From positions 1,922,001 through 1,986,000 of the forward strand of contig NC_057378.1 in NCBI RefSeq assembly GCF_016906535.1: DNA of 64,000 nt, written 5' to 3'. The position numbers and the translations under genes were made by a program. This DNA is from Rhizoctonia solani (taxonomy: Eukaryota; Basidiomycota; Agaricomycetes; Cantharellales; Ceratobasidiaceae). Under the pieces are notes generated by a model. It was not told the DNA's origin. It did no database searches and worked only from the letters and a program-made list of their open reading frames with translations. Each line of letters opens with the position of its first letter. Position 1 is the stretch's first letter. Shown piece after piece: positions 2,738 to 5,706 of this stretch.

Positions 2738-5396
2738 TCAAACCTCCCACAATGGTTCACAGACTTGACTCGCCAGCGTATGAACAGCCTGAGCTGTCGG
2801 ACGACCCGCAGGATTGTACGACCAGCAGCTCATAAGTATCGCCCACAGTACGTTCCCAAGTACGCTCCTCTCAGGTATGATGCTCTCGGGCCGTGGAGGC
2901 GTCTTTTTTCGATCTACAATATGCCGGTAGAGCGAGATCTCAGACCGGCTAGAGAACGGAACCTCTGTCGTGAACGCTTCCTGATTCGTATATCAGTAAA
3001 CATAAATACCGCAGAACCACTCAGACAAGCACCAGAATAGTCTGCAACTGCAAGTCAGTTTCATTTACACAAAGAGATGGGCCATCTTACCATTCCGAGC
3101 GCATATATGTCTCCTTCCTTTGTATGACCAGTCTTTCCTCGTAGTATCTCCGGGGCCTGTGATGATATCACGTGAGTTTGCCCAGCGACAGGAGAACGTT
3201 TGGCCCCAGCTTACTGTCCATCTAACCGAGTAGCTCGGACCGGTGTTAGTTTGCGTGAAGTGCAGTGTAGTGCTCAGAAAACTGGCACAGCCAAAGTCGG
3301 TCAGTCTTGGAGCTCCGTTGCGGTCGATGAGAACGTTCGCCTGTAGTTAGTTATTCAGGGAGTCAAGAAAGCTGAGATTGGTATGCCTCGTACTCCTTTC
3401 AGGTCCCCGTGTACCTGATGAACCGAGGTCAAACATCGAGGCAAAGGTGGGTGATAGCCTGGTTTTGATATGGAGTCACTCTACTCACAATATCCATGCT
3501 GTGTAGGTATAAGACTCCTGCGCAGATAGACTTGCTCTGGGAGTCCGGCGTGAGGACGCCTGATGGATAGAGACACGTAACACCAACTCGACTCACTAGC
3601 TCGCATCTGTTGACCGTTGGGTTGCGTGACAGGTAGTGTGGCATGTTTCCGTTGTCTTCCCACTCAGACACCATCGCCAAACATTCGCGGAATACTGTCA
3701 ATCCGATCAGCTCAACGACATTGGGATGCTGGCATTTCGACCATGTATGAATCTCCCGTGCGGCTCGCTGAACACATTCATAAGGCGAGTTGCGAGACGA
3801 TAAAGTGCCGGGCTACCTGCCTTTTGGTACTTTCCAACTAACTCACTTGATTCGCCGTAAGACCGAAACACTTTGATGGCAACGCGTGTTCCAGTACGAA
3901 GTCGACCAACAAATATATCACCCAAGCCGCCAGTAGCGACTGGATGATTGGAGCACAGAGATAAATCAATCGATGGGGTGATATCGACGCAGCCATGGGT
4001 TGTAAGAAGGTTGAGAATTTGGGTGGAGGTCTAAAACAATGAATGTCATAGAGCAGAAAAAGTAAGGAAAAGAAAGAACCATGACAGATGAGACAGTATC
4101 GGAAAGATTCTGTTCAAAATCCAAAGTGGCTCTCTGTGGTTGTAGCGCATTCTGGTTTAGCGCCGAAAATGATTAAAAAACTGAAGATCGTTGAACAACC
4201 AAAACGATTGGAAGGCTATAAAGTAATATGCGCACATGGTCATGAGAAAATTACGGGCAAAACCAAAATTTTAGGATCGCAATGCCGGCCTGGGATCGTA
4301 CATACCAGCTGAATTTGTGAGGTAGAATGAGCAAAATTTAGGGTTGATGGACAAACGTGGAGCCCTACTCACAGGCTATATCCACGACGCAGCATGAGCA
4401 CGAGTGAGAGCGGCGAGACGAATGTACAGTCCCACTCACTTCCTATATCCACGAAGCAAGATGAGCACGAGTGAGAGCGGCGAGACGAATGTACAGTACT
4501 ACTCACAATCTATATCCACGAAACAGGATGCATGAGCACGAGTGAGAGCGGCGAGACGAATGTACAGTCCTACTCACAGTCTATATCCACGACGCAGGAT
4601 AAGCACGAGTGAGAGCGGCGAGACTAATGTACAGTCCTACTCACATACTATATCCACGAAGCAGGATGAGCACAAGTGAGAGCGGCGAGACGAATGTACA
4701 GTCCTACTCACTTGCTATATCCATGACGCAGGATGAGCACGAGTGAGAGCGGCGAGACGAATGTACAGTCCTACTCACAACCTATATCCACGACGCAGGA
4801 TGAGCACGAGTGAGAGCGGCGAGACAAATGTACAGTCCCACTCACTTGCTATATCCACGACGCAGGGTGAGCACAAGTGAGAGCGGCAAGACAAATGTAT
4901 AGTCCTACTCACAGTCTATATCCACGACTCAGGATGAGCACGAGTGAGAGCAGCGAGATAAAGCTATAGCATTACTTACAGGCTTTATCCACGAAGCAGG
5001 ATGAGCACAAGTGAGAGCAGCAAGACGAATGTACAGTCCTACTCACTTGCTATATCCACGACGCAGGATGAGCACGAGTGAGAGCGGTGAGACGAATGTA
5101 CAGTCCTACTCACTTGCTATATCCACGACTCAGGATGAGCACGAGTGAGAGCAGCGAGATAAAGCTATAGCATTACTTACAGGCTTTATCCACGAAGCAG
5201 GATGAGCACGAGTGAGAGCGGCGAGACGAATGTACAGTCCTACTCACATACTATATCCACGACGCAGGATGAGCACGAGTGAGAGCAGCGAGATAAAGCC
5301 ATAGCATTACTTACAGGCTATACCCACGGGCTCACAGTTCAACTTATTAGTTCTCGCCTAGCAAACCTTTCAACCCACCGGGTTTGAATTATTCAT
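2738..5396 (-). CDS. TKL-type protein kinase with N-terminus built from single-codon exons
   Basis: Spliced exons give a complete kinase domain. In order they encode a glycine-rich loop (TGGLGDIFVGRL), VAIKVF, the segment HPNVVELIGL, catalytic loop VHGDLKG (about 3395-3412), DFG (3290-3298), APEIL, DIYALGM and C-lobe CWSYNPAGRPTAQ; the stop is TGA at 2738-2740. This HGDLKG class is greatly expanded in Rhizoctonia-type fungi; substrates are unknown. The proposed start is ATG at 5394-5396, giving MNNSNP before a 61-nt intron. Fifteen 3-nt exons in the array at 4373-5317 and a sixteenth (CTG, 4306-4308) follow, all in phase 0. The connection between 4305 and the exon starting at 4030 is unresolved: either one 275-nt intron or an extra small exon. 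The gene is divergent from the SNF2 gene across 310 bp. The kinase domain is firm; the 5' model is a prediction. Confidence 0.85.
4373..5317 (-). repeat. Array of 14 near-identical introns separating 15 single-codon exons
   Basis: The unit is 67 bp: 64 bp that on the minus strand read as an intron, plus a 3-bp spacer. Every unit starts GTGAGT or GTAAGT, carries CTCTCAC as a branch-point-like site, and ends GGATATAG or GGATAAAG. One unit (4510-4577) has 4 extra bp. The 3-bp spacers lie at 5315, 5248, 5181, 5114, 5047, 4980, 4913, 4846, 4779, 4712, 4645, 4578, 4507, 4440 and 4373 (left base). In gene order they read P Y P Q Q P T Q V Q Y T I E P: seven different triplets and no stop. Two intron subtypes exist; the GTAAGTAATGC type always follows CCT, which points to duplication of blocks. 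Flanking introns at 5318-5378 (61 nt) and 4309-4372 (64 nt, diverged) look like older members. Whether all units splice is untested. Confidence 0.85.
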
Positions 5397-5706
5397 GGCT
5401 GCTCGACTGGTGTATAAAATCTAATCGTCAGACACGATTTCTCCCAGCTCAGCGCAGTCGATACTTCCACACCGGTGGTTAGTATTCACACAAACCTCTA
5501 CTAATGGACCTGTAATCTACTTGGGGGGATTGTTGTGGTCGAGCGCCAGCGGAGGCTAAGGGCAACCCATTATAACATTCTGTCCGCATGTATGTTACGT
5601 GAGCACATCAGCTCACCATTAGCCCGTCACGTGAGATTCGGCACCCCAGGGCCGGCCTTGGCGTGTCGATCTCCAGTCGCCTTTTCTTCTCGATCTCGCT
5701 AACGCC
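5397..5706. promoter_or_regulatory. Divergent promoter region between kinase and SNF2 gene
   Basis: These 310 bp separate two oppositely directed start codons. On the minus strand TTTTATAC lies about 25-30 bp upstream of the kinase ATG and could serve as a TATA element. A CACGTGA-type motif occurs twice, near 5596 and 5627. No other feature is seen. Confidence 0.45.

Follow-up and report, generated by a model that had tools for sequence, protein, structure and literature searches.

The micro-exon genes (MEGs) of Schistosoma mansoni contain many consecutive, very short exons, mostly of 3n nucleotides, and specify variable proteins (PMC10526429). As excerpted, that account gives MEG exons of 6-81 bp in its text (3-81 in its abstract), mostly 15 bp, and introns of 0.1-5 kb. 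So far as this excerpt describes them, MEGs are the nearest in architecture to a protein kinase gene of the crop-infecting fungus Rhizoctonia solani and to its sister gene, both of which have a run of very short 3n exons: 15 and 64 exons of 3 nt, predicted from sequence and all in phase 0. Here, however, every array exon is a single codon, the 64-nt introns are near-identical, and the product is a fungal kinase. Nor do these genes belong with the schistosome family itself (secreted trematode proteins, long introns): the matches listed, where named, are R. solani and Ceratobasidium proteins, Pfam identifies a kinase, and the predicted introns measure 49-74 nt, with one of 172.

Inclusion of a single 3-nt exon by the spliceosome is described, for example, for micro-exon 8 of Drosophila homothorax (PMC7392893). 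That example, as excerpted, concerns one microexon per gene, whereas the present genes would have runs of 15 or 64, flanked by cloned introns. Tandem duplication as a means of intron gain, outlined in an excerpt of PMC4974935, offers a possible route to the first array unit. Fungal introner-like elements are families of multiplied, similar spliceosomal introns (PMC4457414, in excerpt). They multiply into various genes, according to that excerpt, whereas the array units lie at two loci, in tandem and always 3 nt apart. Near-identical introns with splice signals are found here too, and dispersal over many unrelated genes is not: 77 of 81 genomic matches to the unit core fall in the two arrays.

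Stwintrons and recursive splicing involve consecutive splicing reactions, and a stwintron is an intron in which a splice element is interrupted by a second intron. The array units, by contrast, each own a complete GT-AG pair, with a 3-nt codon between. In TAL effectors and fungal WD40 NLR proteins, homogeneous repeats carry hypervariable specificity residues and are reshuffled by recombination. There the constant part is protein; in the array it is intron that stays constant, and translation is predicted for the variable residue alone. The cited accounts, as excerpted, describe no run of single-codon exons, and among the open-licence PubMed Central papers listed no report of such an array was found; the preliminary description of this DNA had likewise known of no system built this way. 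We think it probable, from the analysis below, that the array is real and that its single-codon exons encode the amino-terminal tail of the kinase.

Two arrays of triplets and cloned introns

The window (the whole 64,000-nt stretch analysed, G000:C9:1922001-1986000, in a genome of 40.7 Mb and 16 contigs) holds the window array of the window gene (copy A); the second locus holds the sister array of the sister gene (copy B). All features of the window gene lie on the minus strand. A predicted promoter or 5′ UTR (5397..5700) is common to the gene and to a divergent helicase gene. From 5396 to 4306 the order is as follows: a predicted first exon, ATG AAT AAT TCA AAC CCG (MNNSNP; 5379..5396); a first intron of 61 nt (5318..5378), GTGGGT...GTATAG, with GTAAGT as its donor in the sister gene; the array (4373..5317); a last intron of 64 nt (4309..4372), GTGAGT...TTCAG; and a 16th single-codon exon, CTG (L; 4306..4308), followed by GTATGT and identical in both copies. 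GT-AG ends are found as well in the introns ahead of the first triplet and behind the last. The last intron resembles the array introns in its 5′ part and is a possible progenitor of them. Farther on are a predicted 172-nt intron, GTATGT...CCACAG (4134..4305); a predicted exon, RATLDFEQNLSDTVSSVM (4080..4133); a phase-0 kinase exon that starts TSTQILNLLTTHGC... and contains no internal in-frame ATG (3817..4030); and the remaining predicted kinase exons (2738..3763; Pkinase / PK_Tyr_Ser-Thr).

Parsing of the array from 5317 to 4373 gives 15 sense triplets with 14 cloned introns between them, of which 13 measure 64 nt and the other 68 nt. The single-codon exons are, in order, CCT (P, 5315..5317), TAT (Y, 5248..5250), CCT (P, 5181..5183), CAA (Q, 5114..5116), CAA (Q, 5047..5049), CCT (P, 4980..4982), ACT (T, 4913..4915), CAA (Q, 4846..4848), GTT (V, 4779..4781), CAA (Q, 4712..4714), TAT (Y, 4645..4647), ACT (T, 4578..4580, then the 68-nt intron), ATT (I, 4507..4509), GAA (E, 4440..4442), and CCT (P, 4373..4375); GAA CCT is the end of the sister array too. 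The predicted peptide, PYPQQPTQVQYTIEP, is identical to the 15-residue peptide of the preliminary description, and parsing agrees equally with its 14 tandem intron-like segments (64 nt, one 68), each with donor, CTCTCAC and acceptor. Donors are GTGAGT (11) or GTAAGT (3) and acceptors ATAG (12) or AAAG (2); CTCTCAC is present in 14/14 window-array introns and in 57/63 sister-array introns. Tandem Repeats Finder (TRF) reports a single array of 67-bp period and 13.8 copies at 4364-5293.

The sister array (C9:1780758-1784932) is on the same strand, 142 kb from the window array, at the equivalent position of the duplicated kinase gene. It has 64 triplets, and its predicted peptide, RLFSAESARAEFRALLEELASLNEEEQQAREPEFRALFNELRRAQQAEEENAEEWRRRASENEP, is rich in E/A/R/L; CTG then follows, as in the window gene. 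Three nucleotides between introns, always sense and in phase 0, had been claimed for the window array; this holds for 15/15 triplets there and for 64/64 in the sister gene. The latter, which stand beside the same kind of introns, lend independent support to the earlier interpretation, whose arguments from anatomy, phase and frame are supported by the sequence. That interpretation had not included the 64-unit sister array, the single triplet type per amino acid, or the focusing of variation on the triplet. An own-genome protein search matched at least 49 places, all from query residue 55 onward, and so showed no continuous exon for the 64-residue tail. Amphipathic or helical order in this tail is not significant (295/3000 shuffles reach the observed value).

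The DNA flanking the array on either side occurs at two genomic places only, the window and the sister locus. The duplication takes in the 5′ part of the adjoining helicase gene, and the helicase frame has a stop in the second copy, so the sister copy is probably the derived one. A genome-wide search with the unit core (up to 3 mismatches) leaves four matches outside the arrays, with 3 mismatches each, compared with 5 matches for the reversed control. The GTGAGT pattern with acceptor ANAG gives 77 matches genome-wide, 7 of them beyond the two arrays, and 0 for the reversed control. Six of these 7 belong to one unrelated repeat; the seventh is an isolated site. The unrelated family, ACTCACATCCTGTTTCC...ACTCACCCTCT, lies by this pattern search at C9:1046089, C11:1261118, C12:474354, C12:598743, C13:829702, and C16:3415462 of the same genome (G000).

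Pattern searches for further arrays with GTAAGT or GTATGT donors found none (1 match, control 1; and 2 matches, control 1); these searches, like that for GTGAGT, are exact and limited in form, and diverged arrays could escape them. Beside paralogous kinases, TRF reports no arrays in 18 loci of about 3.2 kb, and AG-NNN-GTRAGT pairs spaced 45-90 nt number 0 in the rest of the window plus these 18 loci (57 kb), against 14 in the window array.

Splice signals, frame and the triplet alphabet

Six positions are invariant in 78/78 introns of 64 nt, a count that takes in the two terminal introns: G1, T2, A35, A45, A63, and G64. In the consensus intron the branch-like residues A35 and A45 lie within CTCAC and CTCAT, and A45 is 19 nt from the 3′ end; both contexts fit the branch consensus yUnAy. 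Donors of all 79 array and terminal introns are GTGAGT (75), GTAAGT (3), and GTGAGA (1). Intron definition is usual in fungi, and would favour pairing of the nearest GT and AG here, as 64 nt is close to the lengths of the gene's other predicted introns (49-74 nt, except the one of 172). Against the reading of the array as single-codon exons count the weak predicted donor behind SSVM, GTTCTT, and the steric demands of a run of 3-nt exons.

Since all predicted phases are 0, any subset of triplets could be skipped without loss of frame, as had been proposed. Retention of a single intron would shift the frame, as had been proposed for those of 64 nt, and a stop then lies in the retained intron itself, in the triplet behind it or in the intron after that for 74/79 introns. 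Exon skipping that yields variants within one cell is possible; the variation seen in the sequence is between gene copies.

The same phases preserve the frame when the whole array is skipped. The array might thus be a plain minisatellite in one long 5′ intron, with the MNNSNP exon spliced over it to the L or the RATLDFEQ exon and the triplets untranslated, and no annotated model that was read uses the array. We consider this unlikely. Variation in a plain minisatellite or VNTR would be spread regardless of codon or splice site, and neutral repeats would not be expected to focus it on the 3 nt between AG and GT, to leave GT, AG, and the branch-like A's unchanged throughout 78/78 introns, or to hold 14 triplets for 14 amino acids. 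The focusing is marked. Per-site diversity is 0.653 for triplets versus 0.078 for introns in the sister array, and 0.603 versus 0.115 in the window array. Across 76 units, the triplet itself takes 14 forms, a 3-nt frame overlapping it by two bases 8, and any frame wholly within the intron at most 5.

In the two arrays together, 79/79 triplets are sense (the CTG after each array excluded). They comprise 14 types (AAC, ACT, ATT, CAA, CCT, CGA, CTT, GAA, GCT, GTT, TAT, TCA, TGG, and TTT) for 14 amino acids, with no synonyms. Fourteen random sense triplets would all specify different amino acids with P = 0.003, and the value is the same when triplets containing AG are excluded; with codon-position composition kept, absence of stops plus all-distinct residues has P = 0.016. 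For 12 types drawn from codons that end in A or T and lack AG, P is 0.07. Lack of stops by itself is uninformative (P 0.47 for 14 types), and absence of synonyms taken array by array is not significant (P 0.32 for copy A, 0.08 for copy B). Codon usage is not a full explanation for one triplet per amino acid: the array triplet is the commonest codon for 9/14 amino acids when usage is counted over 10 long open frames from the window, some of which are not known genes, and R uses CGA and S uses TCA. The concentration of variation on the exon triplet, together with the lack of synonyms, indicates selection on the triplets at the protein level.

Constraint beside the arrays and the deposited gene models

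Downstream of the array, the kinase coding sequences of the two copies (948 aligned nt) differ with dS 0.121 and dN 0.029 (dN/dS about 0.24). The two spliced predictions match Pfam Pkinase with E values of 1.4e-41 (window gene) and 8.5e-41, and the kinase relatives, wherever named among the 120 matches listed, are R. solani and Ceratobasidium proteins. Introns of the kinase gene outside the array differ at 65/684 sites (9.5%), and unevenly so, which softens the arguments from constraint that follow. Two of these introns (3596-3537 and 3393-3341, minus strand) are identical between copies (0/60 and 0/53 sites), others differing at up to 13/58; local gene conversion is possible at these two.

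The promoter region differs at 3 of 303 sites, plus one 1-nt indel, versus 65/684 for the introns (Fisher p 4e-8), and the MNNSNP exon is 18/18 identical. The helicase fragment beyond the promoter differs at 35/654 sites. This intergenic stretch (5397-5700) is about 1% diverged, even though the helicase fragment beside the second copy has a stop. Behind the array, the 172-nt intron differs at 14/172 sites plus one indel, and the exon RATLDFEQNLSDTVSSVM is identical at 54/54 positions amid introns about 8% diverged (p 0.03). A segment ahead of TSTQ in P0003 and P0004, DFEQNLSD-[TI]-VSS, matches this exon, which supports reading it as coding.

Four deposited models (P0001, P0002, P0003, and P0005) have four different starts, in or after the array. 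P0001, from a 16-kb contig, starts with DCTFVSPLSLVLILLHGYSL, the last unit in another frame (20/20 residues identical to copy B), and its model then omits the last 64-nt intron. P0003 starts MDIAS-GMYDPR; its tblastn match begins at residue 5, and by our reading of the sequence its start would be the ATG at the end of the last unit, with the same last intron removed. The starts of P0001 and P0003 imply that other R. solani records have the last unit at least. P0005, an R. solani protein, has its first 50 residues identical to the window copy. It starts MAASISPHRL in a shifted frame (3996-3847, minus strand) and loses the glycine-rich loop and VAIK; as a model of the window gene, this deposit is probably incorrect. 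With all four starts in or after the array, similar arrays could be hiding in annotated genomes as apparent satellites.

These models raise another alternative: that the array lies upstream of the true gene, which would be transcribed from a downstream start: the 4082 ATG (MTSTQIL...) or, for the sister copy, an ATG in the last unit. P0002 (MTSTQIL) and P0003 (MDIAS-GMYDPR...) start at these places, by our own placing of their first residues. In the sister copy, the stretch after CTG and part of the next exon (L009 4677-4453, minus strand) form 75 stop-free codons that match P0003. This open frame is incompatible in phase with the array, as is P0003; with the post-CTG stretch open in a non-array phase, the sister copy and P0003 could have their start within the last unit. 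In P0003's frame, however, the window copy has a stop and a 1-nt indel, its last unit lacks the ATGGATATAG start, and the post-CTG region has diverged at the level of an intron, 14/172. The ATG at 4082-4080, in frame and downstream of the window array, is the last codon of the exon RATLDFEQNLSDTVSSVM, whose identity between copies and matching segment in P0003 and P0004 speak against a start there; so does the strong conservation found upstream of the array, in the promoter and the ATG exon. We regard a downstream start as improbable.

Proposed shuffling of triplets and its possible mechanism

The consensus array introns of the two loci differ at only 1/64 bases, compared with 9.5% for the gene's other introns, a closeness that masks three window introns with at least 10 differences from every sister-array intron. 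One intron of the window array has an exact counterpart in the sister array, with different adjoining codons. The encoded residues have diverged far more: by eye, the two peptides share a final E-P-L and are otherwise not alignable, and the array residues differ between copies except at the last two triplets (GAA CCT).

Sister-array triplets show association with intron sites -27, -18, -17, -13, -11, -6, +19 to +21, and +38 (at most 3/500 permutations each), and none with +25, +26, and +28. Association with outer sites is weak or nil (-46 and -44, 26 and 17/500 permutations; others at least 71). This association with near flanks is as cassette shuffling predicts. The EFRA block of four recurs 22 units apart, its introns differing by at most 1 base. 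FNELRR and EEWRRR, 15 units apart, likewise have introns at most 1 base different each, with 4/6 residues changed. Among triplet pairs with one difference in the 64 flanking nucleotides, the triplets differ in 74/96; with zero differences they differ in 13/33. We infer that a triplet is copied along with its flanks, and that exchanges within introns reassort the triplets.

The last two sets of pairs bear on an alternative in which the triplet is hypermutated in a targeted manner, for example at recombination junctions, with little selection on the amino acid: triplets do change faster than flanks. Such a process would be expected to leave stops and synonyms, of which there are neither among 79 triplets, and the association of triplets with near flanks points to copying instead of new mutation; we judge this alternative very improbable. 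Chance or artefact is ruled out by recurrence of the units at two loci whose arrays differ in length and residues, and is countered also by the last unit's presence in gene models of other R. solani records.

Under the reading that we prefer, an array of translated single-codon exons, the amino-terminal kinase tail would be encoded by a series of 67-bp cassettes, one intron plus one codon apiece. Each array intron would be removed individually, and the spliceosome would join the residues singly, to give PYPQQPTQVQYTIEP in the window gene and a 64-residue tail in the sister gene; the tail would then be translated. Unequal exchange and gene conversion within the homologous introns presumably drive array evolution, and such intron exchange would add, remove or move single residues with the frame intact. 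If selection on the residue spreads only new amino acids, the lack of synonymous triplets would be explained. New triplet letters may arise by mutation and selection or by a directed process. The tail itself is a putative segment for interaction or tethering of this signalling kinase, one that could be rewritten rapidly.

A bolder formulation, on which we are evenly divided, is that of an editable peptide memory. Its one-residue cassettes would be written in a fixed alphabet, 14 letters so far with one triplet per amino acid. Near-identical introns would serve as recombination handles by which single residues are inserted, deleted, copied and permuted, and splicing would read the string out; nearly all of the kinase tail would have been rewritten, against changes of a few percent elsewhere in the gene.

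If the arrays are translated, they represent an extreme of exon shuffling, with recombination at single-residue resolution, the intron conserved and the codon as payload. The spliceosome would then be able to handle dozens of consecutive 3-nt exons. And because one genome holds two sister genes with very different tails, the system would provide a direct test of the idea that introns speed protein evolution.

The three divergent introns mentioned above form a subtype of their own, GTAAGTAATGCTAT..., with GTAAGT donors. These 3/14 window introns (5314-5251, 5180-5117, and 4979-4916, minus strand) each stand right behind a CCT codon and show at least 10 differences from any of the 63 sister-array introns; they make up a second intron lineage, seen in the window array only.
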